NCBI RefSeq assembly: GCF_015482775.1
Contig: NZ_CP058214.1
Coordinates: 2,780,501 to 2,844,500, forward strand
Direction of reading: 5' to 3'
DNA: 64,000 nt
Origin: Kaustia mangrovi
GTDB taxonomy: Bacteria; Pseudomonadota; Alphaproteobacteria; Rhizobiales; Im1
Shown here: positions 15,095 through 50,620 of the stretch, one piece after another
How positions within the stretch are numbered: the stretch's first letter is position 1
Layout: every line of letters starts with the position of its first letter
Made by a program: the position numbers and the translations under genes
The notes under the pieces: model-generated
Databases searched by the model: none
Seen by the model: only the letters and a program-made list of their open reading frames with translations
What the model was told of the DNA's origin: nothing

Positions 15095-16648
15095 CTACTG
15101 GCTGCGCACCCGCTCGGCCGCGAGGCCGTCGGCCTCGATATCGGCGCCGGCATCCGCGGGCTCGTCTTCGGGCACCCAGCCGTGGGCGCTGAGATCGGCG
15201 ACGGTCTCTCCGGCTTCCTGCCAGCCGCGCTTCTCCTCCTCGCTCGCGCGCGGCGAGAAGAAGCCGGTGAAGGCGTAGAAGATGCCGAAGACCGGCGACA
15301 GCCAGCAGGCGAAGGCGAGCGGAATGTAGAGCAGGTTCTCCATGTGCCCGCTGGAGACGCCGAGCGCGAGCGCGGAGATCACGAAGGCCCCGCCCGCATT
15401 CCACGGGATCAGCGGCGAGATCAGCGTGCCGCCTTCCTCCACCGCGCGCGACAGGTTCAGCGTCGAATAGCCCATGCCGCGATAGACCGGGGCATACATG
15501 CGGCCTGGAAGGGCGATGGAGAGATAAGGGTCGCCGGCGACCAGGTTGGTGGCCATGGAGGTGCCGATGGCTGCCGACTGGATACCGGCGAAGCTGCGGA
15601 TCTTCGTCATGATCGCCTGGATGATCGTTTCCAGGCAGCCGGTCTTCTCCAGCGCGCCGCCGAAGCCGAGCGCGATCAGCACGAGCGAGATGGTCCACAT
15701 CATGGACTGGATGCCGCCGCGATTGAGCAGGCTGTCGATCTCGCTGATGCCGGTGTCGATGCTGTAGCCGCTATTGGCATAGGTGAAGACGTCGTGGAGC
15801 CCGACGCCCTGCGCGATCATGGCCGCCGCGCCGCCGGCCAGCGCGCCGGCGAACAGAGACGGGATGGGCGGCATGCGCTTGACTGCCAGCACGATCACCA
15901 GCAGCGCAGGCAGGAGCAGCCAGGGCGAGATGACGAAATTGTCCTGGAGCGCCCCGGTGATCAGCGTGATCCGTTCGAAGGAAGCCCCGTCGGACTCGAT
16001 GAGCGTATAGCCCGCGAACAGATAGATCGCGAAGGCGATCAGCATGGAGGGGACGGTCGTCGGCATCATGTTCTTGATGTGCGAGAACACGTCGACACCG
16101 GTGACGGCGGGCGCGAGATTGGTGGTGTCGGAGAGCGGCGAGACCTTGTCGCCGAAGAAGGCTCCCGAGACCACGGCGCCGGCCGTCCAGTAGACCGGAA
16201 TGCCGAAGCCCGCGCCGATGCCCATCAGCGCCAGGCCGACCGTGCCGACCGTACCCCAGGAGGTGCCGAGCGACAGCGAGACGACCGAGCACAGCACCAT
16301 GGCGGCCGCCAGGAATATCTGCGGCGAGAGGATGGTCAGCCCGTAATAGATGAGCGTCGGCACGGTGCCGCTGGCGATCCACACGCCGATGATCATGCCC
16401 ACCGTGATGAGCACGGAGACCGACGGCAGGGAAACGTGGATCACATGGAACACACCCTTTTCGATATTGCGCCAGTCGAAGCCCAGCGAAATGCCGACCA
16501 GCGAGGTGATCGCCAGTCCGATCGCCAGTGGCACATGCGGTGTGAAATCGTCGAAATAGAAGAGCTGCACGCCCAGCACGAGCAGCGTGAGCACCACGGG
16601 CGTCAGCGCCAGCGGCAGGCTCGGCAATCGCCTTGTCGATGATGTCAT
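15095..16648 (-). CDS. Na+/H+ antiporter, NhaC family
   Basis: A 517-residue polytopic membrane protein of the NhaC antiporter/arginine-ornithine-like superfamily, with about 11-12 predicted spans. Characteristic are GTSWGTVGTVGLALMGIG, the re-entrant SPLSDTTNLAPAVTG stretch with an acidic residue in the membrane, and SAAIGTSMATNLVAGDPYLS near the C-terminal repeat. ATG at 16648 is chosen for the GGGAAGAGA ribosome site just before it; an upstream in-frame extension to 16717 lacks similarity. It is divergent from an Lrp/AsnC regulator, which may control it. NhaC relatives may exchange organic ions instead of sodium, so the true substrate is open. Confidence 0.9.
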   Translation of the reverse strand: MTSSTRRLPSLPLALTPVVLTLLVLGVQLFYFDDFTPHVPLAIGLAITSLVGISLGFDWRNIEKGVFHVIHVSLPSVSVLITVGMIIGVWIASGTVPTLIYYGLTILSPQIFLAAAMVLCSVVSLSLGTSWGTVGTVGLALMGIGAGFGIPVYWTAGAVVSGAFFGDKVSPLSDTTNLAPAVTGVDVFSHIKNMMPTTVPSMLIAFAIYLFAGYTLIESDGASFERITLITGALQDNFVISPWLLLPALLVIVLAVKRMPPIPSLFAGALAGGAAAMIAQGVGLHDVFTYANSGYSIDTGISEIDSLLNRGGIQSMMWTISLVLIALGFGGALEKTGCLETIIQAIMTKIRSFAGIQSAAIGTSMATNLVAGDPYLSIALPGRMYAPVYRGMGYSTLNLSRAVEEGGTLISPLIPWNAGGAFVISALALGVSSGHMENLLYIPLAFACWLSPVFGIFYAFTGFFSPRASEEEKRGWQEAGETVADLSAHGWVPEDEPADAGADIEADGLAAERVRSQ

Positions 16649-38761: not shown

Positions 38762-40588
38762 ATGGCCGAAAGCATCCGGAAGGAGGACTGGGAGCGGTTC
38801 CGAGCGCTCGGCAAGGTTCCGCCGAGGATCCGCGAGGTCGTGCTCCAGTCCTGGCAGCGATCGGAGGCCGACAGGGGGATCCCGTCCCTCAAGCAGGCCC
38901 CGAGGGTGGCCGACGACGAGTTTGCCGCCATCCGGCAGCAGACCGGGCGGCTGCGCGAGGCCGCGCGCCCCGCGCTCGAGCGGGCCGGCTACATGCTGAA
39001 CCGCGCCAATGCCATGGTTCTCCTGTGCAATGACAGAGGGGTCGTCACCGACACGACGGGCGACGCGCGCACCATCGCGCGCGGGCAGGAGAACCACCTG
39101 CATATCGGGGGACAATGGGACGAGGGGGCCATCGGCACCAACGCCATCGGCACCGCGATCCATACGCGCCGCCCGGTGCAGATCTGGGGCGTGGAGCACT
39201 ATTGCGAGGAGATCCAGCGCTGGAACTGCGCGGCGACGCCCGTCTGCGATCCGGTGACGGGGGAGCTTCTCGGTCTTGTCGACATTTCCGGACCCTCCGA
39301 GTTCGAGCAGCCCCATTCGGCGGCCCTGTCCATGTCCATGGCGCTCCAGATCGAGGAGAGCCTGCGCCAGCAGGTGGGCGCGGAACGCCAGCAGCTCACC
39401 GAGCGCCTCCTGGTCCGGCGGATGCGCTGGGTCGATGACGAGGTGATGGTGCTCGACCGCTATGGCGCGGAGGCGTTCGCGACCGAGCATTTCGCCCAGA
39501 TGGCCGGCGATCTCTGCGACCTGACGGAGTTCCGGCGCATGGCCTCGGGCCTTTCGCAGCGCCCGCGCGACGAGGTCATGGAGGAGCTTCACGCCGCCAT
39601 GCCCAATGCGAGCATGGAGCTGGTTGAGGAGGCCGGCCGGCCGATCGGCGTCGTGGTCGCGCTGCGTCGGCGCCAGCGCAACGCGCCGTCCCGGCCCGCC
39701 CTCACGCTCGACCGGATCGCGGCGGGCGGCGTGGAGATCTCGTCGGTCTGCGAACAGGCGCGCCGCCTCGCGGCCAGCCGCATGCCGATCCTCGTCGAGG
39801 GTGAGACGGGCTCCGGCAAGGAGGTGCTGGCGCGCGGCATCCACCGGGAGAGCGGGGATCCCGAGCGCCCCTTCGAGGTCCTGAACTGCAGCCTGCTCAC
39901 CGCCGACCGGCTCCGCCAGGAGCTGTCCGAAGGCGCGCTCGTCGCCCGCCTCGCACGCGCGGGCGGCACGATATGTCTCGACGAGCCGGCGGACACGCCC
40001 GCCGATGCCCAGGCGCTCCTTCTGGAGGTCGTGAAGGCGCTCGGCGGGGTGGAGACGTCCTCCGGCCCCATGCGCATCGTCTCGCTGTCGGCGCGTGACC
40101 TGTCCGCCGACATCCAGGCGGGCCGGTTCCGCGGCGACCTCTATTACCGGCTCGCCGCGGCGCGGATCGCCGTGCCACCCCTGCGGCAGAGAAGCGACGA
40201 GGTGGCCCATCTCCTGAAACATTTCGCGCGCGAGCTGGCGGAGCGCTCGCGCAGGCCGGAGCTCCGCTTCACGCCGGCCGCGACCGACCGGCTGTCGGCC
40301 TATCGCTGGCCGGGCAATGTGCGCGAACTGCGCAATCTGGTCGAGACGCTCTTCGCGCTCTCGCGCAACCGGCTGGTCGATCTGCGCGACCTGCCGCCGG
40401 AGATCGTGACGCCGGCGCGCGCGGACTGCACGCAGACGCTGCGGGCGCGCGAGAAGGCGGAGATCGTGAACGCGATCGCCAGTGTCGACGGCAATCTCAC
40501 CGAGGCCGCGCGCCGGCTCGGCATCGCGCGCTCCACCCTCTATCTGAAGCTCGACGAGCACGGCATCCAGCGCGCCCGCAGGCACTGA
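38762..40588 (+). CDS. acxR: AcoR/AcxR-type enhancer-binding activator lacking the GAFTGA loop
   Basis: A 608-residue regulator immediately upstream of the acetone carboxylase operon. Residues about 60-200 form a GAF-type sensor (TGDARTIARGQENHL, DEGAIGTNAIGTAIHT, PVCDPVTGELLGLVDISG). The AAA+ domain has Walker A VEGETGSGKEVLARGIH, Walker B GGTICLDEPAD, the sensor-II WPGNVRELRNL, and a Fis-type DNA-binding helix (GNLTEAARRLGIARSTLYL). Between Walker A and B, the stretch LRQELSEGALVARLARA is much shorter than usual and has no GAFTGA, the loop that contacts sigma-54. A few activators without it, such as TyrR and the NtrC of Rhodobacter capsulatus, work with sigma-70. ATG at 38762 is used. Confidence 0.88.
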   Translation: MAESIRKEDWERFRALGKVPPRIREVVLQSWQRSEADRGIPSLKQAPRVADDEFAAIRQQTGRLREAARPALERAGYMLNRANAMVLLCNDRGVVTDTTGDARTIARGQENHLHIGGQWDEGAIGTNAIGTAIHTRRPVQIWGVEHYCEEIQRWNCAATPVCDPVTGELLGLVDISGPSEFEQPHSAALSMSMALQIEESLRQQVGAERQQLTERLLVRRMRWVDDEVMVLDRYGAEAFATEHFAQMAGDLCDLTEFRRMASGLSQRPRDEVMEELHAAMPNASMELVEEAGRPIGVVVALRRRQRNAPSRPALTLDRIAAGGVEISSVCEQARRLAASRMPILVEGETGSGKEVLARGIHRESGDPERPFEVLNCSLLTADRLRQELSEGALVARLARAGGTICLDEPADTPADAQALLLEVVKALGGVETSSGPMRIVSLSARDLSADIQAGRFRGDLYYRLAAARIAVPPLRQRSDEVAHLLKHFARELAERSRRPELRFTPAATDRLSAYRWPGNVRELRNLVETLFALSRNRLVDLRDLPPEIVTPARADCTQTLRAREKAEIVNAIASVDGNLTEAARRLGIARSTLYLKLDEHGIQRARRH

Positions 40589-40667
40589 GCGCGGGGGCCG
40601 CGCCGGCGGCCTCGGCCCGTATGCGGCTGCGAACGGGGTTTCGCGTCCGCAACATGTCGTCGGCGCC

Positions 40668-40682
40668 GTCCGAAATTCGGAC
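40668..40682 (+). promoter_or_regulatory. Perfect palindrome upstream of acxA
   Basis: GTCCGAA-A-TTCGGAC is a perfect 7-base inverted repeat with a one-base centre, 78 bases before the acxA ATG in the only gap between the regulator and the operon. Position and symmetry fit an operator or activator site for the AcxR-like protein. No correctly spaced GG-N10-GC sigma-54 element is seen around it. Confidence 0.5.
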
Positions 40683-40759
40683 ACTTGCCGGCATCCCGCA
40701 GTTCCTACCCTTCCATCACGCGCCGGCTTTCCAAGGCGCGGGTAACGGGAGGAACTGCA

Positions 40760-42913
40760 ATGTCATCCACTGAACAGCCTGTCCGCAGCGTTCAGGTGCT
40801 CGGCATCGACGCGGGCGGTACCATGACCGATACCTTCTTCGTCGACAGCGAGGGGGAGTTCGTCGTCGGCAAGGCCCAGAGCACGCCGGATAACGAGGCG
40901 CTGGGCCTGATCGCCTCCAGCAGGGAGGGGCTCGAGCACTGGGGCATCGAGCTCGGCGAGGCGCTGTCCCAGATCCAGACCGGGGTCTATTCCGGCACCG
41001 CCATGCTCAACCGCGTGGTCCAGCGCAAGGGTCTGCGCTGCGGCCTGATCGTCAATGCGGGCATGGAGGATTTCCACCGCATGGGCCGCGCGATCCAGGC
41101 CTATTTGGGGTTCGCCTACGAGGACCGCATCCACCTCAACACCCACTATTACGACGAGCCGCTGGTTCCCCGCCACCTCACGCGCGGTGTGATGGAGCGG
41201 ATCGACATGTCGGGTACCGTGGTCATCCCGCTCAGGGAGGAAACGGCCCGTCAAGCGGCCAGAGAGCTCATCGCGCAGGATGTGGAGGGGATCGTCATCT
41301 CGCTCCTGCATTCCTACAAGAACACCTCCCATGAGCGCCGGGTGCGCGACATCGTGCTGGAGGAGGTCGAGGCCAGCGGCAAGGCCATCCCGGTCTTCGC
41401 CTCCACGGACTACTATCCCGTCCGCAAGGAGACCCACCGCACCAACACGACGATCCTGGAGGCCTTTGCCGCCGAACCCTCCCGCCAGACGCTGCAGAAG
41501 ATCTCCAGCGCCTTCAGGGAGAACGGCTCGTGCTTCGACTTCCGCGTCATGGCGACCCATGGCGGCACGATCAGCTGGAAGGCCAAGGAGCTCGCCCGCA
41601 CCATCGTGTCGGGCCCGATCGGCGGCGTGATCGGTGCGAAGTATCTGGGCGAGACGCTGGGCTACAACAATATCGCCTGCTCCGATATCGGCGGCACCTC
41701 CTTCGACGTGGCGCTCATCACCCAGAACGAGCTGACCATCCGGAACGATCCGGACATGGCGCGCCTCGTCCTGTCCCTGCCGCTGGTGGCGATGGACTCC
41801 GTCGGCGCCGGGGCGGGCAGCTTCGTCCGGCTCGACCCCTATACCAAGGCCATCAAGCTCGGCCCGGACTCGGCGGGCTACAGGGTCGGCGTATGCTGGG
41901 CCGACAGCGGTATCGAGACGGTGACCGTGTCGGACTGCCATGTGGTGCTCGGCTATCTGAACCCCGACAACTTCCTCGGCGGCCAGGTTCGCCTCGACCG
42001 GGAGCGCGCCTGGAACGCGCTCAAGGAGCAGGTGGCCGACCCGCTCGGCCTGTCGGTGGAGGATGCCGCCGCCGGCGTCATCGAGCTGCTCGACAGCGAT
42101 CTGCGCGACTATCTGCGCTCGATGATCTCCGGCAAGGGCTACAGCCCGTCGAGCTTCGTGTGCTTCTCCTATGGCGGCGCCGGCCCCGTTCACACCTATG
42201 GCTACACGGAGGGGCTCGGCTTCGAGGACGTCATCGTGCCGGCCTGGGCGGCGGGCTTCTCCGCCTTCGGCTGCGCGGCGGCGGATTTCGAGTACCGCTA
42301 CGACAAGTCGCTCGATATCAATATCTCGACCGACGCCGAGCCGGACTTCAAGGCGGAGCAGGCGCAGACGCTGCAGGCGGCCTGGCACGAGCTTACCGAA
42401 CGCGTCCTGGAGGAGTTCGAGCGCAACGGCTATGAGCCCGACAAGGTCGCCCTGCAGCCCGGCTTCCGTATGCAGTATCGCGGCCAGCTCAACGATCTGG
42501 AGATCGAGAGCCCGATCCTGCGGGCCGACAACGCGCAGGACTGGGACCGGCTGGTGGAGACCTTCAACGACACCTATGGCCGGGTCTATTCCGCCTCGGC
42601 CCGCTCGCCGGAGCTCGGCTATTCGGTGACCGGCGCCATCATGCGCGGCACCGTGCCGATCCCCAAGCCGCGCATCCCCAAGGAGACCCTGTCGGGCGAA
42701 ACGCCGCCGGAGGCGGCCAAGCTCGGCACCCGCAAGTTCTACCGCAAGAAGGAATGGGTCGACGCGCAGCTCTACCAGATGGAGATGCTGCAGCCGGGCA
42801 ACCGGGTCGAGGGACCGGCGATCATCGAGTCCGACGCGACCACCTTCGTCGTCCCCACGGGTTTCGTGACGTGGCTCGACGCGCACCGCCTGTTTCACCT
42901 GAAGGAAATCTGA
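40760..42913 (+). CDS. acxA: Acetone carboxylase beta subunit (hydantoinase A-like)
   Basis: A 717-residue hydantoinase/oxoprolinase-type subunit, the length known for AcxA. Acetone carboxylase (alpha2 beta2 gamma2) joins acetone and bicarbonate to acetoacetate using ATP. The ASKHA-type nucleotide motif VLGIDAGGTMTDTFFVD lies at the N-terminus and a second, SDIGGTSFDVALI, in the middle, with SFVCFSYGGAGPVHTYGYTE near the C-terminal third. The beta subunit is thought to bind and cleave ATP to phosphorylate the substrates. ATG at 40760 follows GGGAGGAACTGCA. The stop is 23 bases before acxB. The length and the presence of acxC rule out acetophenone carboxylase or a plain hydantoinase. Confidence 0.95.
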   Translation: MSSTEQPVRSVQVLGIDAGGTMTDTFFVDSEGEFVVGKAQSTPDNEALGLIASSREGLEHWGIELGEALSQIQTGVYSGTAMLNRVVQRKGLRCGLIVNAGMEDFHRMGRAIQAYLGFAYEDRIHLNTHYYDEPLVPRHLTRGVMERIDMSGTVVIPLREETARQAARELIAQDVEGIVISLLHSYKNTSHERRVRDIVLEEVEASGKAIPVFASTDYYPVRKETHRTNTTILEAFAAEPSRQTLQKISSAFRENGSCFDFRVMATHGGTISWKAKELARTIVSGPIGGVIGAKYLGETLGYNNIACSDIGGTSFDVALITQNELTIRNDPDMARLVLSLPLVAMDSVGAGAGSFVRLDPYTKAIKLGPDSAGYRVGVCWADSGIETVTVSDCHVVLGYLNPDNFLGGQVRLDRERAWNALKEQVADPLGLSVEDAAAGVIELLDSDLRDYLRSMISGKGYSPSSFVCFSYGGAGPVHTYGYTEGLGFEDVIVPAWAAGFSAFGCAAADFEYRYDKSLDINISTDAEPDFKAEQAQTLQAAWHELTERVLEEFERNGYEPDKVALQPGFRMQYRGQLNDLEIESPILRADNAQDWDRLVETFNDTYGRVYSASARSPELGYSVTGAIMRGTVPIPKPRIPKETLSGETPPEAAKLGTRKFYRKKEWVDAQLYQMEMLQPGNRVEGPAIIESDATTFVVPTGFVTWLDAHRLFHLKEI

Positions 42914-42936: not shown

Positions 42937-45249
42937 ATGAACATCGCAGCAGAAACCAAACGCGGCATCGTCCGCGGCGGCGAGACGCTCAAGGAGCATC
43001 GCGACCGCCTGATGGAGGCCACACGGCGCACCGGCCACTATGCGGGCCTCGAGAAGAGGGCGCTGCATGACAGCGATCCCATCCTCTACAACAAGCTCTT
43101 CTCGCGGCTCAGGGCGGGCGTCGTCGATGCCCGCGAGACGGCCAAGAAGATCGCGGCCTCGCCGATCGTGGAGCAGGAGGGCGAGCTGTGCTTCACCCTC
43201 TACAACGCCGCGGGCGATGCGATCCTCACATCGACCGGCATCATCATCCATGTCGGCACCATGGGCGCGGCGATCAAGTACATGATCGAGAACGACTGGG
43301 AGGGCAATCCCGGCATCAGGGACAAGGACATCTTCTGCAACAACGACTCGCTTATCGGGAACGTCCACCCCTGCGACATCCACACCATCGTGCCGATCTT
43401 CCATGGCGGCGAGCTCGTCGGCTGGGTCGGCGGCGTCACCCATGTGATCGACACCGGCGCGGTCGGTCCGGGCTCCATGTGCACCGGCCAGGTCCAGCGC
43501 TTCGGCGACGGCTATTCGGTGACCTGCCGCAAGATCGGCGAGAACGACACGCTGTTCCGCGACTGGCTGCACGAGAGCCAGCGCATGGTGCGCACGACCC
43601 GCTACTGGATGCTCGACGAGCGGACCCGCGTGGCCGGCTGCCACATGATCCGCAAGCTCGTGGAGGAGGTGATCGCGGAAGAGGGCATCGAGGCCTACTG
43701 GAAGTTCGCCTACGAGGCCGTCGAGCATGGCCGGGTCGGCCTGCAGAACCGCATCAAGGCGATGACCATCCCCGGCACCTACCGCCAGGTCGGCTTCGTC
43801 GACGTGCCCTACGCCCATGAGGATGTGCGCGTGCCCTCCGACTTCGCCAAGGTCGACACGATCATGCACACCCCCTCGGAGATGACCATTCGCGGCGACG
43901 GGACGTGGCGCCTCGACTTCGAGGGCTCGAGCCGCTGGGGCTGGCACACCTACAACGCCCATCAGGTGAGCTTCACCTCGGGCATCTGGGTGATGATGAC
44001 GCAGACGCTGATTCCCACCGAGATGATCAATGACGGGGCGGCCTACGGCACCGAGTTCCGCCTGCCCAAGGGCACATGGATGAACCCGGACGACCGGCGC
44101 GTGGCCTTCGCCTATAGCTGGCACTTCCTCGTCTCGTCCTGGACGGCCCTGTGGCGCGGCCTGTCGCGCTCCTATTTCGGGCGCGGCTATCTGGAGGAGG
44201 TGAATGCGGGCAACGCCAACACCTCCAACTGGCTCCAGGGCGGCGGCTTCAACCAGTATGACGAGATCCATGCGGTGAACTCCTTCGAATGCGCCGCCAA
44301 CGGGGTGGGCGCCTCGGCCATCGCCGACGGGATCAGCCACGCCGCCGCCATCTGGAACCCGGAAGGCGACATGGGCGACATGGAGATCTGGGAGCTCGCC
44401 GAGCCGCTCGTCTATCTCGGCCGGCAGATCAAGGCGAGCTCCGGCGGCGCCGGCAAGTATCGCGGCGGCTGCGGGTTCGAGAGCCTGCGCATGGTCTGGA
44501 ACGCCAAGGACTGGACCATGTTCTTCATGGGCAACGGCCATATCAGCTCCGACTGGGGGCTGATGGGCGGCTATCCGGCGGCGTCGGGCTATCGCTTCGC
44601 GGCCCACGAGACCGGGCTTGAGGAGAAGATCGCGAGCGGTGCGCCCGTGCCCCATGGCGGCGACACCGATCCGGAGAACCCCGTCTGGGACGGCATGCTG
44701 GAAGGGGCGCGGATCAAGCGCGACAAGCAGGCCATCACCACCGAGGAGATGTTCCGCGATCACGATCTCTACCTCAACTACATGCGCGGTGGGCCGGGCT
44801 TCGGCGACCCGCTGGACCGGGACCCGCAGGCGGTCGCCGACGACGTCAATGGCGGCTATCTGCTGCACCGCTTCGCCGACAGCGTCCATGGCGTGATCCT
44901 GGCGGAGGCCGGCGACGGGCTCTACGGCGTGAACGAGGCGGCGACGGAGGCCCGCCGCGCCGCCATCCGCAAGGAGCGGCTGGAGCAGTCCGTGCCGACG
45001 GCGGAATGGATGGCGAAGGAGCGCGAGCGGATCCTCGCCAAGGATGCCGGCCTCCAGGTCCAGCAGATGTTCGCCGCCTCCTTCAAGCTCGGGCCCCGCT
45101 TCGAGGTGTCGTTCCGCGAGTTCTGGGACCTGCCGGAGAGCTGGGTGCTCGACGAGGCGGACCTGCCGATCCCCTCCTATGGGCGGGAGTACTCGATGGA
45201 CCTGTCGGAGCTGCCGGACGTGCGCACCGTGGAACTCGTCGAGCAATGA
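42937..45249 (+). CDS. acxB: Acetone carboxylase alpha subunit (hydantoinase B-like)
   Basis: A 770-residue HyuB-type subunit. The alpha subunit holds the site where the activated enolate of acetone is joined to CO2, with manganese. Seen are a conserved hydantoinase-B core ASPIVEQEGELCFTLYNAAG, FCNNDSLIGNVHPCDIHTI, VGWVGGVTHVIDTGAVGPGS and MRGGPGFGDPLDRDPQ near the C-terminus. ATG at 42937 has AGGGAGGAAAAAAGAG upstream; an open frame back to 42754 is only a shadow of acxA. The protein is full length for the family and free of frame breaks. Its stop is 59 bases before acxC. Confidence 0.95.
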   Translation: MNIAAETKRGIVRGGETLKEHRDRLMEATRRTGHYAGLEKRALHDSDPILYNKLFSRLRAGVVDARETAKKIAASPIVEQEGELCFTLYNAAGDAILTSTGIIIHVGTMGAAIKYMIENDWEGNPGIRDKDIFCNNDSLIGNVHPCDIHTIVPIFHGGELVGWVGGVTHVIDTGAVGPGSMCTGQVQRFGDGYSVTCRKIGENDTLFRDWLHESQRMVRTTRYWMLDERTRVAGCHMIRKLVEEVIAEEGIEAYWKFAYEAVEHGRVGLQNRIKAMTIPGTYRQVGFVDVPYAHEDVRVPSDFAKVDTIMHTPSEMTIRGDGTWRLDFEGSSRWGWHTYNAHQVSFTSGIWVMMTQTLIPTEMINDGAAYGTEFRLPKGTWMNPDDRRVAFAYSWHFLVSSWTALWRGLSRSYFGRGYLEEVNAGNANTSNWLQGGGFNQYDEIHAVNSFECAANGVGASAIADGISHAAAIWNPEGDMGDMEIWELAEPLVYLGRQIKASSGGAGKYRGGCGFESLRMVWNAKDWTMFFMGNGHISSDWGLMGGYPAASGYRFAAHETGLEEKIASGAPVPHGGDTDPENPVWDGMLEGARIKRDKQAITTEEMFRDHDLYLNYMRGGPGFGDPLDRDPQAVADDVNGGYLLHRFADSVHGVILAEAGDGLYGVNEAATEARRAAIRKERLEQSVPTAEWMAKERERILAKDAGLQVQQMFAASFKLGPRFEVSFREFWDLPESWVLDEADLPIPSYGREYSMDLSELPDVRTVELVEQ

Positions 45250-45308: not shown

Positions 45309-45809
45309 ATGGCCTATACGAAGGCAAAGATCCGGGATCTGGTCGACGGCAAGATCGACCGCGACACGCTGCACCAGATGCTCTCCACGCCGAAGGATGC
45401 CGAGCGCTTCGAGATGTATCTGGAGATCCTTCAGGAGCAGGTGCCCTGGGACGACAGGATCGTTCTGCCGCTCGGCCCGAAGCTCTTCGTCGTCCAGCGC
45501 GCGATGGACAGGAAATGGGTGATCCGGAGCTGGGCCGGATACGATTTCTGCGACTGGCAGGAGAACTGGAAGCTCCATGCGCGCATCCGCGTGCGCGAGA
45601 CGCCGGAGCAGATGGAGGAGCTCTATCCCCGCCTCATGGCGCCGAGCACCGACTGGCAGGTGATCCGCGAATATTTCTGCCCGCTCTCCGGAGACCTCCT
45701 CGATGTGGAGGCGCCGACGCCCTGGTATCCGGTCATCCACGATTTCGAGCCGGATATCGACACCTTCTATCGCGACTGGCTCGGCCTCGAGATCCCCGAA
45801 CGGGCCTGA
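45309..45809 (+). CDS. acxC: Acetone carboxylase gamma subunit
   Basis: A 166-residue subunit of the family found only in acetone carboxylases. It begins MAYTKAKIRDLVDGKIDRDT and has IRSWAGYDFCDWQENWKLHA and REYFCPLSGDLLDVEAP, where the cysteines may bind zinc, then WYPVIHDFEPDIDTFYRDWL. It is required to hold the alpha and beta parts together; its catalytic role is unclear. ATG 45309 has AAAGGGAGGAAACC upstream. It ends the operon, 29 bases before a strong hairpin. Confidence 0.95.
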   Translation: MAYTKAKIRDLVDGKIDRDTLHQMLSTPKDAERFEMYLEILQEQVPWDDRIVLPLGPKLFVVQRAMDRKWVIRSWAGYDFCDWQENWKLHARIRVRETPEQMEELYPRLMAPSTDWQVIREYFCPLSGDLLDVEAPTPWYPVIHDFEPDIDTFYRDWLGLEIPERA

Positions 45810-45876: not shown

Positions 45877-46288
45877 TCTCCGTCTCGCCCCGCCCCGCCA
45901 CGGGCCCGGATTCGCCCCGTGGCATTTTTGCGACAGGACGGGGGATAAATCCGAATGCCGGCGGGGCCCGGCGCGACGGCATCCGGCGCCGGCCGCCATC
46001 GCGATCCCCGCGAAAACATTACTTTTTCAGTCAAGAATTCCGTCGGCGGCGTCCTGGCCGGCGATACATTCCTGGAATTGATCTAAATCATTGCTATTGC
46101 AAGAGAAATTCAAAGTGCATTAAAGCCGGTCATCATCGGTGTCCAGAGGGCTGGACACGCCAAGGCCGTCTTCCGGGCTCGTCTTCCGTCCGTATCATGC
46201 ACCAGTGCGATCCCCATATGCCGTATCTCCTGCCCGGTGGCCCGGCCGGCGGGATATGGCGTGCGTCCGCCAGAGCGAGGGCCGGCTG
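45877..46288 (+). promoter_or_regulatory. AT-rich leader and putative promoter of the sigma factor gene
   Basis: About 400 bases without a gene. From 46010 to 46125 base composition drops sharply. A promoter-like pair TTGCAA (46097-46102) and TTAAAG (46120-46125), 17 bases apart, follows a 17-base AT-rich element AATTGATCTAAATCATT (46076-46092) that could be an iron-response (Fur-like) operator. This is consistent with an iron or haem uptake operon downstream, but the site does not match a textbook Fur box well. The stretch between 45880 and 46010 shows nothing notable. Confidence 0.45.
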
Positions 46289-46798
46289 ATGTGGGACCTG
46301 CAGAAGCTCTTCCTGCGGCATGCGCGCGAGATCGACCGCTTCCTGAGACGGCGCGGCCACAGCCCCGAGACCGCCGCCGACCTGACCCAGGACACCTTCT
46401 TGCGTGTGATGACGGCGGCGGCGCGCCGCGATGGCGGCAATCCGCGGGCCTATCTGCACCGGGTGGCGCGCAACCTGTCGATCGACCTGCGCCGCCGGGA
46501 GTGCCGCATGGAGCATGTGAGCCTGCCGGAGGAGGAGATCCACGCCATTGCCGATCCTTCCCCCTCGCCGGAGACTGCGGCCTATGACCGCGAGCGGCTG
46601 AGGATCGTCGAGAGCGCCATCGCGGAGTTGCCGGAAAGGACGCGCCGGGCCTTCCAGCTGCACCGGCTGGGCGGCCGCACGCTGAGCGAGGTGGCCGGCG
46701 AGCTCGGCCTGTCCACATCGCGGACATGGGTTCTGATCCGCAAGGCCTATCTCCATCTGCGCGCCCGTCTCGCCGAGGCCGGCGACGACCCGGCCTGA
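46289..46798 (+). CDS. FecI-type extracytoplasmic-function sigma factor
   Basis: A 169-residue ECF sigma factor: region 2 is REIDRFLRRRGHSPETAADL followed by TQDTFLRVMTAA and GNPRAYLHRVARNLSIDLRR, and region 4 is IAELPERTRRAFQLHRLGG plus LSEVAGELGLSTSRTWVLIR. The FecI branch is indicated by the following FecR and TonB-receptor genes. ATG at 46289 is preceded by GAGGGCCGGCTG; a longer reading frame begins at 46139 but has no family match. In the known system an iron compound at the outer membrane releases this factor through FecR. It should recognise promoters such as those at 46797 and 47852. Confidence 0.93.
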   Translation: MWDLQKLFLRHAREIDRFLRRRGHSPETAADLTQDTFLRVMTAAARRDGGNPRAYLHRVARNLSIDLRRRECRMEHVSLPEEEIHAIADPSPSPETAAYDRERLRIVESAIAELPERTRRAFQLHRLGGRTLSEVAGELGLSTSRTWVLIRKAYLHLRARLAEAGDDPA

Positions 46799-46825
46799 GA
46801 AAATTGCCGCCCGCCAATCGTTCCA
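46797..46825 (+). promoter_or_regulatory. Putative ECF promoter before fecR-type gene
   Basis: GAGAAAAT (46797-46804) and CGTTCCA (46819-46825) are separated by exactly 14 bases. The same two boxes, with the same spacing, occur ahead of the TonB receptor at 47852-47880. The left box overlaps the stop codon of the sigma factor gene. A promoter for a FecI-type factor is the natural reading. Confidence 0.6.
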
Positions 46826-46870
46826 GATAGTGTGGGACGCAATCCGACGGCCTCCGCAAGGGGCCGCGCC

Positions 46871-47833
46871 ATGGAACGGATAGCCATGACCGAGGACATG
46901 CCGGAAGACGACGCGCTGTTCGTGGAGGCGCTCGACCTGATCATCCGGCTGCAGAACGATCCCGACAACCCCGTCGCGCGCGACCTGGTCCGCCGCTGGC
47001 GCGCGCGCGGCCCCCGGCACGAGGCGGCCTGGGCGGAAGCCGTCGAGCTCCACGGCATGGCCGGCGAGGTGCTCCGCGACGGCGGCCGGACAGGCGCGCC
47101 GTCGCGGCGCAAGGTGATCCTGGGCGCCGCCGCCGGGGCGGCCGCGCTCGGGCTCGGCGCGCTCTACGCACCGGAGCTGCGCCTGAGCCTCATGGCCGAC
47201 CACATGACATCGACGGCGGAACTGCGCCGGATCGCGCTCGAGGACGGAACGGCCGTCACGCTCGGTCCCGACAGTGCCATCGCGACAACCTTCACGCCGG
47301 AGCACCGGCAGGTGGAGCTGCTCGACGGCATGGCGTTCTTCCAGGTGGCCGACGACACCGGCCGCCCGTTCCGCGGCATTGCCGGCGATCTGTCGGCGAC
47401 GGCGCGCGCAGCGGCCTTCGCCATGAGCCGCGATGCCGGCTTCCTGACGGTATCGGTGGACCGTGGCGGCGTGGACCTCGCGGCCCCGCAGGCACGCTTC
47501 TCCGCCGGGGTGCGGCTGTCGCGCGGGGAGTGGCTCACCCTGGACGGCCGGTCGTCCTCGATCGAGCGCGGCGCCCGCGATCCAGGCCAGATCGCGGCCT
47601 GGCGGGACGGTCTGGTCGTCGCCGAGCGCGACACGGTGGCCGCCGTGGTGGCGAGGATCGCCCGCTGGCAGCCCGGCCGGGTCCTGATCGCCGATACGGG
47701 GCTCGGCGAGCGCCGGATCAGCGGCGTGTTCGATCTCCACAATCCCGTCGCGGCCCTGAGGGCCGTGGTCCAGCCCCATGGCGGCACGGTCCGCCGGTTC
47801 TCGCCCTGGCTGACCGTCATCTCGTCCGTCTGA
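46871..47833 (+). CDS. FecR-type transmembrane anti-sigma regulator
   Basis: A 320-residue FecR family protein. The N-terminal part has the cytoplasmic DUF4880-type opening (FVEALDLIIRLQNDPDN, RRWRARGPRHEAAWAEA), which holds the sigma factor. One membrane span follows (RRKVILGAAAGAAALGLGAL) and then the FecR periplasmic domain (DGTAVTLGPDSAI, VELLDGMAFFQVADDTGRPF) and a C-terminal STN-interacting region (GLGERRISGVFDLHNPVAAL). It passes the receptor's signal to the sigma factor. ATG at 46871 is favoured by AAGGGG upstream; ATG 46886 is also possible. Transcribed in the sigma factor operon. Confidence 0.93.
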   Translation: MERIAMTEDMPEDDALFVEALDLIIRLQNDPDNPVARDLVRRWRARGPRHEAAWAEAVELHGMAGEVLRDGGRTGAPSRRKVILGAAAGAAALGLGALYAPELRLSLMADHMTSTAELRRIALEDGTAVTLGPDSAIATTFTPEHRQVELLDGMAFFQVADDTGRPFRGIAGDLSATARAAAFAMSRDAGFLTVSVDRGGVDLAAPQARFSAGVRLSRGEWLTLDGRSSSIERGARDPGQIAAWRDGLVVAERDTVAAVVARIARWQPGRVLIADTGLGERRISGVFDLHNPVAALRAVVQPHGGTVRRFSPWLTVISSV

Positions 47834-47851
47834 GAAAAATCCCCGGCAGGG

Positions 47852-47880
47852 GAGAAAATCCGCAAGGCCCGTTCGTTTCA
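47852..47880 (+). promoter_or_regulatory. Putative ECF promoter before the TonB receptor
   Basis: GAGAAAAT (47852-47859) and CGTTTCA (47874-47880) are again 14 bases apart, 74 bases before the receptor ATG. The identity with 46797-46825 in both boxes and in spacing is unlikely to be chance in this GC-rich DNA. Confidence 0.65.
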
Positions 47881-47953
47881 TTCAGTAGGGGCTGCCGCTA
47901 GCCGCTGCCAACCGTCCAGCCCCTTCCGACAGACTGAAACGGAGAGATGGATC

Positions 47954-50620
47954 ATGGGGCCAGAAGGTCGGTGCGAGGGGAGAAGACGTGTCGGCGCACA
48001 TCTGTTCATTGCGGCATTGCTTGCCTCCGCAGGCGGCGGCGCGGCCATGCTGGCCGGTGCGCAAGCGGTGCAGGCGCAGGCACGCCAGCAGGTTTCGTTC
48101 AACCTTCCCGCCGGGCCGCTGCCGGCGGCGCTGGCGGCGTTCGGCCGCCAGGCCGGTCTTCAGGTGACCTACCGCCCCGAAATCGCGTCCGGCAAGCGCT
48201 CGCCGGGCCTGTCCGGCGCCTTGCCGCCCGACATGGCGCTGGGACGCCTCCTGCAGGGGTCCGGGCTCGCCTACCGCTTCACGGGCGCACGCACTGTGGC
48301 GATCGTCGATCCCGCCGCGCCCGGCGATGTCGGTGCGGTGGCGGACGGCTCGACCCTGCTCGGCGCCATCAACGTGACCGCGGGAGGCGGCAATCCGGTC
48401 GAGCGCCCCTACGAGACGCCCGGCGCCACCGCCTATATCTCGGAGGAGAACATCGAGCGCTTCCGCGGCAGCAACCCGGCCGACATGTTCCAGGGCACGC
48501 CCGGCGTCATGTCGGGCGAGGCGCGCAATGCCGGCAGCGCCATCGACGTCAATATCCGCGGCATGCAGGGCATGGGGCGCGTCGAGGTGACGGTCGACGG
48601 GGCGGAGAACGCCGTGACGGTCTATCAGGGCTATCAGGGCATATCGAACCGCACCTTCGTCGATCCCGACCTGCTCGCCGGCATCGACATCACCAAGGGG
48701 TCCGACGTCGCCTCGAACGGCATTGCGGGAACGGTCGCCATGCGCACGCTGGATGCCGGCGACATCGTGAAGGAGGGCAACCGGTTCGGCGTGAGGCTCA
48801 AGGGCGGCTTCGGCACCAATACGAGAAGCCCGAAGGACGGTGCGGTCTCCGGCTATGACTGGCCCAGCGGGCAGCCGGACGCCCCGACGCCCTCGCCGGA
48901 CGGCATGAACCGTCCGTCCTTCCTCACCCCCACGAGCGGATCGGGCAGCGTCGTCGGGGCCTACAAGGGCGACCGGATCGACCTGCTCGCCGCCTATGCC
49001 TACCGCAAGCGCGGCAACTACTATGCGGGCGAGGAGGGGCCCGGAGCGGAGCCGGTCAATATCGGCCCGCGCGAATACTGCACGGCCTGGGGCAACTGCT
49101 CGCAGGTCGAGGATTACTACGTGAATGGCGGCCTCACCAACTACCGCCCGGGCGAGGAGGTGCTCAACACCCAGCTCGAGACCGAATCCTGGCTCGGCAA
49201 GGCGACAGTACGCTTCGGCGACGGACACAGCCTGAAGCTCGGCTATACGGGGTTCCGCAGCGAAGCCGGCGACCGCCTCGCCTCGCGCCTGACGAGCGGG
49301 TCCTCGCAGGCGACCCAGCAGCCCCAGACCGCCGGCACCAGGCTCGACACCGGTACGCTGCACTACAACTGGCAGCCTGACGACAACGACCTGATCGCGC
49401 TCAAGGCCAATCTGTGGTTCACCCACCTCGAGCTGCGCAATCCCAAGCGCACCGGCTTCACCCTGCCCGAGCCCGGCGACTTCCGGCCCGGCTCCGATTC
49501 CGACCTGTGGGGCGGGGAGATCGCGAACACCTCCAGGCTGTCCACCGGTTTCGGCGCGGTCGATGTCGATTATGGCATCTCCTATCGCGGCGAGGACACG
49601 CGGCCGAGCCCCGGCACGAAGGAGGCGGAGACCTGGCTCGACCTGCGCGACGGGATCCGCCATGAGGTGGCGGGTTTCGCCAAGATGGCCTGGCAGGCCC
49701 GGGACTGGCTCACCGTCGAGGCCGGTCTGCGCTACGCCCATGTCTGGTCGAAGGACCGCAACGACCCCTATCTGGAACGCAACTACACCTACGATTCCTC
49801 GTTCAACGACGGGGGCTTCAGCCCGTCGGTCGGCGTGACGGTGGAGCCGGTCGACTGGGCACAGCTCTATGTGAGGTATTCCAACGTCATGCGCGCGCCG
49901 AGCATCATCGAATCGGTGTCGGCCTTCACCATGAACGTCAACGAGAACCTCAGGCCGGAACGCTCCAGCAACTGGGAGATCGGGGCGAATCTCATCGGCG
50001 ACGGGCTGATCGCCGCCGGCGACCGGGGCATGGTGAAGCTTGGCTACTTCAACTGGGTGGTGGACAACTATATCGCGCGGGAGTGGTACACCTACCCCAA
50101 TGGCTCCATGGGCATGCGCATCTTCAATATCGACAGCGCGTCGTTCTCCGGACTGGAGCTGTCCGGGCGCTACGAGATCGGCGGGTTCGCCGCCGAGCTT
50201 GCGGCCAATTACTATCTCGATGTGGAATTCTGCCGCACGGCGGACAGCTGCGAGAGCAAGTCGCTCTATGCCGACTACGCGACGAACCAGGTGCCGCCCG
50301 AATATTCCGTCGACCTGACGCTGTCCCAGAGATTCTTCGGCGATGCGCTGACCGTCGGCGGCCGCGTCTCCCATATCGGCCCGCGCGCGGTCGGCCATGG
50401 CGACGTCACCGGGCAGGGCATGTCGCAGTTCATCACCAAGATCGACTGGAAGCCCTACACGCTCTTCGACGTCTTCGCAGAATACAGGTTCAACGAGAAC
50501 TTCACCGCCAGCGCGCGCATCGAGAACCTGATGGACAAATACTATGTGGACCCGCTGAGCCTGGTGAACCAGCCGGGGCCGGGACGGACCTTCTATGCCT
50601 CGCTGACGGCCTCGTTCTGA
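47954..50620 (+). CDS. TonB-dependent haem-type receptor with signalling (STN) domain
   Basis: An 888-residue outer-membrane receptor. A signal peptide (AALLASAGGGAAMLAGAQAV) is followed by an STN domain (about 46-115; SFNLPAGPLPAALAAFGRQA), which talks to FecR, then plug (about 140-265; NIRGMQGMGRVEVTVDGAE) and a 22-strand barrel ending with aromatic Phe (YASLTASF). Haem-receptor elements are present: YVRYSNVMRAP (FRAP-like) and VNENLRPERSSNWEIG (NPNL-like), as in HasR-type proteins, though the histidine usually between them is not seen. The next gene encodes haem oxygenase, which supports haem as the cargo. ATG 47954 follows GGAGAGATGGATC. Confidence 0.93.
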   Translation: MGPEGRCEGRRRVGAHLFIAALLASAGGGAAMLAGAQAVQAQARQQVSFNLPAGPLPAALAAFGRQAGLQVTYRPEIASGKRSPGLSGALPPDMALGRLLQGSGLAYRFTGARTVAIVDPAAPGDVGAVADGSTLLGAINVTAGGGNPVERPYETPGATAYISEENIERFRGSNPADMFQGTPGVMSGEARNAGSAIDVNIRGMQGMGRVEVTVDGAENAVTVYQGYQGISNRTFVDPDLLAGIDITKGSDVASNGIAGTVAMRTLDAGDIVKEGNRFGVRLKGGFGTNTRSPKDGAVSGYDWPSGQPDAPTPSPDGMNRPSFLTPTSGSGSVVGAYKGDRIDLLAAYAYRKRGNYYAGEEGPGAEPVNIGPREYCTAWGNCSQVEDYYVNGGLTNYRPGEEVLNTQLETESWLGKATVRFGDGHSLKLGYTGFRSEAGDRLASRLTSGSSQATQQPQTAGTRLDTGTLHYNWQPDDNDLIALKANLWFTHLELRNPKRTGFTLPEPGDFRPGSDSDLWGGEIANTSRLSTGFGAVDVDYGISYRGEDTRPSPGTKEAETWLDLRDGIRHEVAGFAKMAWQARDWLTVEAGLRYAHVWSKDRNDPYLERNYTYDSSFNDGGFSPSVGVTVEPVDWAQLYVRYSNVMRAPSIIESVSAFTMNVNENLRPERSSNWEIGANLIGDGLIAAGDRGMVKLGYFNWVVDNYIAREWYTYPNGSMGMRIFNIDSASFSGLELSGRYEIGGFAAELAANYYLDVEFCRTADSCESKSLYADYATNQVPPEYSVDLTLSQRFFGDALTVGGRVSHIGPRAVGHGDVTGQGMSQFITKIDWKPYTLFDVFAEYRFNENFTASARIENLMDKYYVDPLSLVNQPGPGRTFYASLTASF

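Follow-up and report, generated by a model that had tools for sequence, protein, structure and literature searches.

An AcxR-like protein of Kaustia mangrovi without the GAFTGA loop, and a probable change of promoter control in its clade of acetone carboxylase regulators

How is an acetone carboxylase operon controlled when the AcxR-like protein encoded just ahead of it belongs by descent to the sigma-54 activators and is without the GAFTGA loop? The question is raised by a stretch of 64,000 nucleotides from Kaustia mangrovi (contig NZ_CP058214.1, positions 2,780,501 to 2,844,500), which is referred to below as the window. The AcxR proteins of Xanthobacter autotrophicus Py2 and Cupriavidus metallidurans CH34, which like that of the window are encoded beside acxABC, carry the sequence SELFGXXXGAFTGA, unlike the window protein, and for the acxRA region TGGCATGNNNNTTGC has been reported as a sigma-54 promoter (available text of PMC2864759); control by sigma-54 and AcxR is stated for X. 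autotrophicus in the available part of PMC2244623. The original prediction held that the locus in the window has switched to another form of control. The genes and protein motifs on which the matter turns are the following.

38762 to 40588, plus strand: gene of the acxR-like activator (product of 608 aa with GAF, a linker, an AAA+ domain in which the GAFTGA loop is missing, lid and Fis HTH)
39800 to 39823, plus strand: Walker A, GETGSGKE, residues 347-354, intact (residue alignment)
39911 to 39970, plus strand: shortened stretch at the expected GAFTGA loop 1, residues 384-403 (residue alignment)
39971 to 39988, plus strand: Walker B, ICLDEP (residues 404-409), with Asp and Glu both retained (residue alignment)
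40439 to 40570, plus strand: Fis-type HTH DNA-binding domain, residues 560-603 (family match and alignment)
40760 to 42913, plus strand: acxA, acetone carboxylase beta subunit (ORF, family match, locus comparison)
42937 to 45249, plus strand: acxB, alpha subunit (start MNIAAETK chosen by reading; the listed ORF runs from 42754, inside acxA)
45309 to 45809, plus strand: acxC, acetone carboxylase gamma subunit, PF08882 (ORF, family match)

Further downstream, at 46139-50620, ORFs resembling an ECF sigma factor, a FecR-type regulator and a TonB-dependent receptor stand in a row, which by eye is the usual arrangement of an iron-uptake cassette.

The window protein shows the domain order of the AcoR/DhaR type within the bEBP/NtrC family, with matches to GAF (PF01590), AAA+ (PF00158, 87.9 bits), the AAA lid (PF25601) and the Fis HTH (PF02954). 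Family matches and residue alignment recovered every part that the protein had been predicted to keep, namely the sensor domain, Walker A (GETGSGK at residues 347-353), Walker B, sensor II (Arg 521) and the DNA-binding helix, together with the R-finger arginines 457 and 463. Among the features expected of a sigma-54-dependent enhancer-binding protein, Walker A, Walker B, the R-fingers and sensor II are thus in place, and loop 1 and a -24/-12 element at the adjacent operon are both missing. The predicted shortening between the Walker motifs is real: GA[FY]TGA was not found by motif scan, and 54 residues separate the Walker A Lys from the Walker B Asp, against 65-66 in all 11 GAFTGA-bearing AcxR proteins, so that a merely diverged loop cannot be concealed there. 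Alignment with these 11 proteins, part of a check suggested at the outset, places the deficit at loop 1; sensor I is Ser in the window protein and Thr in all 11. An AlphaFold model built from 16 sequences (mean pLDDT 77.8, pTM 0.45) retains the AAA+ fold, with a short turn at the position of loop 1 between helices 381-389 and 392-400, and has a DhaR-like N-terminal domain. DhaR (NF008485) is also the best NCBIfam match, at 256.4 bits, under the 551-bit cut-off.

To place the locus among its relatives we drew on a scan of genome contigs (15 relatives), a plasmid search (the best 30 of 2359 records, 10 of them taken for comparison) and searches with PF08882 of 385 and 397 genomes (17 stretches taken, one of them the genome G002 again). 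The 46 acx-related loci compared include 36 with an AcxR-like ORF, 25 without GAFTGA and 11 with it; the remaining ten gave no AcxR-like match (G228, G703, G715, G588, G452, G515, G529, G577, G469 and G605). The gap before acxA is readable in 24 of the 25 GAFTGA-less loci, the L043 contig being without acxA, and the frameshifted acxR of G002 was omitted from the residue table and from the AcxR tree. Each group contains a number of rows that are closely related to one another; AcxA of the GAFTGA-less set is 84-91% identical to that of the window.

The division by loop is matched by a division by promoter. A strong -24/-12 element stands before acxA in 11/11 GAFTGA-bearing loci and in 0/24 GAFTGA-less loci. 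All 11 of the former have a plus-strand GG-N10-GC with 9-11 of 12 consensus positions, equalled in 0-8% of shuffles, as in the sigma-54-type site TGGCACGGCGCCTGCG of G047. Among the latter, 20 of the 24 gaps have no plus-strand GG-N10-GC at all, and the matches in the other four are weak, with scores of 4-8 of 12 that 14-86% of shuffles also attain. The 171-base gap between acxR and acxA in the window had been predicted to contain no GG-N10-GC. Taken literally this was wrong, since there are four plus-strand matches (GG at 40594, 40614, 40637 and 40679); the thrust of the claim stands, because the best of them agrees with the consensus at 8 of 12 positions, a score that 22% of mononucleotide shuffles also reach, which leaves no credible sigma-54 site and disposes of a strong hidden one. 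The GG-N9-GC at 40725-40740, which the original prediction had named as the closest match, shares bases with a predicted leader hairpin.

What appears in place of the -24/-12 element is an arrangement that recurs across the GAFTGA-less group, and its parts lie in the window as follows.

40643 to 40660, plus strand: upstream half-sites GCGTCCGCAACATGTCGT (two-box pattern in 21 of the 22 GAFTGA-less acxA promoters scanned)
40667 to 40683, no strand assigned: dyad CGTCCGAAATTCGGACA, proposed as the site of AcxR and spanning about -51 to -35 (motif comparison)
40706 to 40711, plus strand: proposed -10 element TACCCT, 22 bp past the dyad (motif comparison)
40718 to 40740, plus strand: inferred transcript start at about 40718 and predicted leader hairpin (stem 40719-40724/40735-40740; z -0.56, not significant alone)

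The 15-bp core pattern of the window dyad, GTCCGANNNTCGGAC, occurs a single time in the genome. The GAFTGA-less acxA promoters share versions of TGTCCGA-N3-TCGGACA that agree at 9-14 of 14 letters (24 loci), those of three loci, all Martelella, being no better than shuffles. A -10-like YANNNT lies exactly 22 bp past the dyad in 21 of the 24 promoters and 21 bp past it in the other three, and the sequence in between varies widely. Strong dyads, with at least 13 of 14 letters, number 18 in the 392 kb made up of the loci and the window, and stand before acxA (5), before an adh-type gene (6) or before acxR (7); one mononucleotide shuffle of the same 392 kb gave none. The count of YANNNT was made on 22 acxA promoters (without G002 and L063), reduced to 20 when thinning took out L055 and L056, and on six adh sites, reduced to five by the removal of L063. 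After thinning, YANNNT is found at 21 or 22 bp in 20/20 acxA, 6/7 acxR and 3/5 adh promoters, being missing at adh of G002 and L058 and at acxR of L053. The dyad and YANNNT had been chosen by eye on the very sequences in which they were then counted, and the 21-bp option was added after the acxR sites had been seen; binomial tails for the spacing are therefore descriptive only, and, as kinship also inflates the 20/20, the acxR and adh promoters are the better test. It counts against the proposed layout that the window acxR itself has no dyad upstream.

Class II activators bind near -43, and if TACCCT is taken as the -10 element, the centre of the window dyad falls near that position, overlapping the -35 region. 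No recognisable -35 element was found at a spacing of 15-19 bp in the 22 acxA promoters, where TTGACA is matched at 4 of 6 positions in the window (at 15 bp) and at 1-3 of 6 in the other 21. From this layout we infer that the GAFTGA-less acxA promoters are activated from about -43 by class II contact with sigma-70 polymerase. Against this reading, the proposed element has a T at -7 that most alphaproteobacterial sigma-70 promoters are without, according to the available part of PMC8407463. The dyad word is also found, by computation, in two of the 11 GAFTGA-bearing loci (G047 and L064), its centre lying 111 bases ahead of the point at which a sigma-54 transcript would be expected to start, so that the DNA word seems to have been kept while its position changed. 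It is not a general feature of GAFTGA-bearing loci, as only these two reach 13 of 14 letters and the others 8-11.

A leader hairpin before the acxA ribosome-binding site, at the inferred 5' end of the mRNA, was seen in most leaders of both promoter types. Its z-scores run from -0.3 to -3.1 in 21 GAFTGA-less leaders and are about zero or positive in 5/7 GAFTGA-bearing leaders. Statistically weak as it is, the hairpin is perhaps a stabiliser of the mRNA; as independent proof of the start site it was set aside, given the window z of -0.56 and its presence in both groups.

The genome of the window (4.63 Mb, one contig) contains one rpoN gene, so sigma-54 has not been lost from the cell and its loss from the host cannot be the cause of the change. 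Activators of this genome that carry GAFTGA or a close variant include L002 (GAFTGA), L003 (GSFTGA) and L005 (GTFTGA). A second GAFTGA-less activator, L006 (G000:C1:385967-386461), lies about 4 kb from L002, and we take the pair to be, probably, NtrX beside NtrC. Among relatives, rpoN was looked for in the genomes of 14 of the 24 other GAFTGA-less loci (the plasmid records L057-L063 and L048, L052 and L054 not included) and found in 11, and in 8 of the 11 GAFTGA-bearing genomes (L064-L066 not included) and found in all 8. The three in which this search did not find it, a Paracoccus MAG (G781), a Rhodobacterales MAG (G784) and Paracoccus solventivorans DSM 6637 (G785), keep acx and have the housekeeping sigma-70; as they are drafts or MAGs whose completeness is not stated, the result supports a release from sigma-54 and does not decide the matter.

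We consider it likely, taking these lines together, that the window AcxR is a sigma-54-independent regulator of acetone use, perhaps also of 2-propanol use, and activates an ordinary sigma-70 promoter by class II contact. The ancestral AcxR, an AAA+ activator with the GAFTGA loop, would have remodelled sigma-54 RNA polymerase on a -24/-12 promoter from a site at about -111, judging by the two loci where such a site is clear. Loop 1 would then have been deleted in one alphaproteobacterial lineage and the acxA promoter rebuilt, with the dyad word now ending 21-22 bp before the -10-like YANNNT, so that the activator would sit near -43, across the position of the absent -35 element. The GAF domain may sense acetone or a metabolite, the Fis domain would bind the dyad and the upstream half-sites, and AcxR would recruit sigma-70 polymerase by contact, with ATP probably serving for assembly and not for remodelling. 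The predicted switch of control is supported by the promoter division, by the dyad and YANNNT at three kinds of promoter and by rpoN not being found in 3/14 genomes; it is not special to the locus in the window and is common to the GAFTGA-less clade.

A dyad lying across -35 is also what a repressor might use. A GAFTGA-less AcxR acting as a repressor or antiactivator, covering about -51 to -35 of a sigma-70 promoter until released by inducer, would be unharmed by the loss of loop 1 or, as has happened in most relatives, of the Walker B Glu. Such a promoter would call for a -35-like hexamer able to serve without an activator, and the best matches to TTGACA reach 1-4 of 6 positions; in addition, the upstream half-sites of 21/22 promoters suit an activator array, and the same word is the distal site of two sigma-54-type loci in which the protein is presumably an activator. 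Repression is on these grounds unlikely. We think it very improbable that acxA is still dependent on sigma-54, driven in trans by another GAFTGA activator at a degenerate or unrecognised -24/-12 element, with AcxR vestigial or a modulator. The means for this are at hand in the rpoN gene, in L002, L003 and L005 and in the four literal GG-N10-GC matches of the gap; none of these matches rises above chance, three of 14 clade genomes keep acx although rpoN was not found in them, and within the clade the GAF and HTH domains (0.62 and 0.70) are conserved above AAA+ (0.51), which speaks against a vestigial protein.

There is, finally, a frameshifted relative to be accounted for: acxR of G002 (L032 15694-17521) is split near 16113-16121, and one might suspect a sequencing error or pseudogene in the window as well. 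The probability of this is close to nil, for the reading frame in the window runs uninterrupted for 608 codons, the copy near that of G002 in Chelatococcus caeni (L044) is intact, and 24 other AcxR-like genes are also without the motif. The last point excludes a frameshift or assembly artefact behind the missing loop.

A branch with support 100/100 in the AcxR tree, which holds 40 proteins, sets apart the 25 rows without GAFTGA, among them the AAA+-less protein described below; the window protein branches first within this group, the remaining 24 rows grouping at 96/90. The AcxA tree of 34 rows likewise unites 22 GAFTGA-less operons (98/95), and with midpoint rooting these are nested among the GAFTGA-bearing ones, the window first and the next fork weak (85/67). 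Clade membership, adjacency to acxABC and the promoter of dyad, 22 bp and YANNNT are all present in the window. The trees are most simply explained if loop 1 was lost a single time in an alphaproteobacterial lineage, and since the GAFTGA-less AcxR proteins are one clade, the covariation of loop and promoter counts as one event and not as 24. The window AcxR is an informative early-branching example and not a new kind of system.

The ATPase parts have decayed unevenly. The Walker A Lys is retained in 24/24 GAFTGA-less proteins, the sensor II Arg in 11/24, and the Walker B Glu in only four (the window, L057, L058 and L059), having been lost in 20/24; ATP binding may thus outlast hydrolysis. AAA+ is the least conserved domain among 17 non-redundant GAFTGA-less members and the most conserved, at 0.70, among seven GAFTGA-bearing proteins. 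One relative has dispensed with the domain altogether: a GAF-HTH protein of 369 aa adjoining adh in G002 (L032 1719-2828, minus strand), identical to one at G779:C15:10159-11265 in the genome of C. caeni L044, which groups with L059 in the AcxR tree (95/89). A perfect AcxR-type dyad precedes the adh gene beside it. The whole protein was found in G002 and G779 only, in a search of 297 genomes of the order (E 1e-40) and six chosen genomes, and a plasmid search (E 1e-40) gave 11 records, none matching the whole query. The clade may form a graded series from an ATP-driven sigma-54 activator to an ordinary sigma-70 activator, in which loop 1 and the -24/-12 element went first (as in the window, where only sensor I has changed besides, to Ser in place of Thr), the Walker B Glu next, frequently together with the sensor II Arg, and, on the Chelatococcus side branch, the whole of AAA+, the DNA word being kept throughout and moved from about -111 to about -43; we would put the chances of this reading at about even.

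The kind of regulator is not new. Sluis et al. reportedly noted in 2002 (J Bacteriol 184:2969) that the AcxR homologue just upstream of acxA in Rhodobacter capsulatus B10 is without key features of sigma-54 activators and that acxABC there has no apparent sigma-54 promoter, and are reported to have suggested such a switch of control for that species. The window AcxR is accordingly a further case of a kind already known, and R. maris JA276 (L047), through which our comparison with Rhodobacter ran, shares the lack of these features. The window protein differs from that of L047 in retaining the Walker B Asp-Glu and the sensor II Arg and in branching earlier. What is added here, from comparison of sequences, is a probable single origin with the window basal, a shared promoter layout, a probable regulon and a graded loss of ATPase parts. 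Among the literature matches listed, no paper dealt with the AcxR dyad, a GAFTGA-less AcxR or the points added here, and none presented a transcription experiment on this clade, which is weak evidence, as their coverage did not take in the 2002 study of R. capsulatus.

Outside acetone metabolism the nearest parallels are the NtrC proteins of R. capsulatus and Caulobacter, which like the window AcxR are alphaproteobacterial, without GAFTGA and linked to sigma-70, and which differ in having a receiver domain in place of a GAF domain and in serving nitrogen control. According to the available part of PMC10274813 the deletions in these two NtrC proteins are not alike, ATP binding has outlasted hydrolysis in the R. 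capsulatus protein, and the Caulobacter protein requires both Walker A and Walker B residues. The same text describes VpsR of Vibrio cholerae (there spelled VspR) as an AAA+ activator without GAFTGA that works at sigma-70 promoters and does not require ATP. Its AAA+ fold matches that part alone of the window model (7v2b, Z 20.9, rmsd 2.8 over 226), and its sensing of c-di-GMP and phosphate is unlike the window AcxR. The N-terminal region of the model resembles DhaR(N) of Escherichia coli (4lrx, Z 24.2, rmsd 2.2 over 186), a regulator of a different pathway. MimR of mycobacteria is a further precedent.

As to the regulon, strong dyads stand before the gene following acxC in L049 (13048), L056 (13043), L057 (13082), L058 (13067) and L063 (13048). 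The gene past the adh-type dyad is annotated as a zinc-dependent alcohol dehydrogenase in L057, L058 and L063, and its identity as adh in L049, L056 and G002 comes from similarity or ORF reading. AcxR may in these genomes possibly serve a joint 2-propanol and acetone regulon. AcxAB of P. denitrificans is strongly upregulated on ethylene glycol, according to the available part of PMC12214560, and the AcxR of a P. denitrificans record (L059) is without GAFTGA, which would make loci of this type inducible, provided that the strains are alike in this respect.

Proteins of this clade are carried in the records of L058, L060, L061, L062 and L063 under names such as "sigma 54-interacting" or "sigma-54-dependent" regulator, which are probably wrong for GAFTGA-less AcxR; database names like "sigma 54-interacting transcriptional regulator" would seem to mislabel these acetone regulators. 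The usual view is that sigma-54 activators need their ATP engine. A clade that has lost the loop, the sigma-54 promoter and then parts of the engine, with operon and DNA site kept, may be a means of probing what role is left for the AAA+ ring, and, if the graded series is true, the protein of K. mangrovi would activate sigma-70 promoters and might have kept the hydrolysis of ATP.
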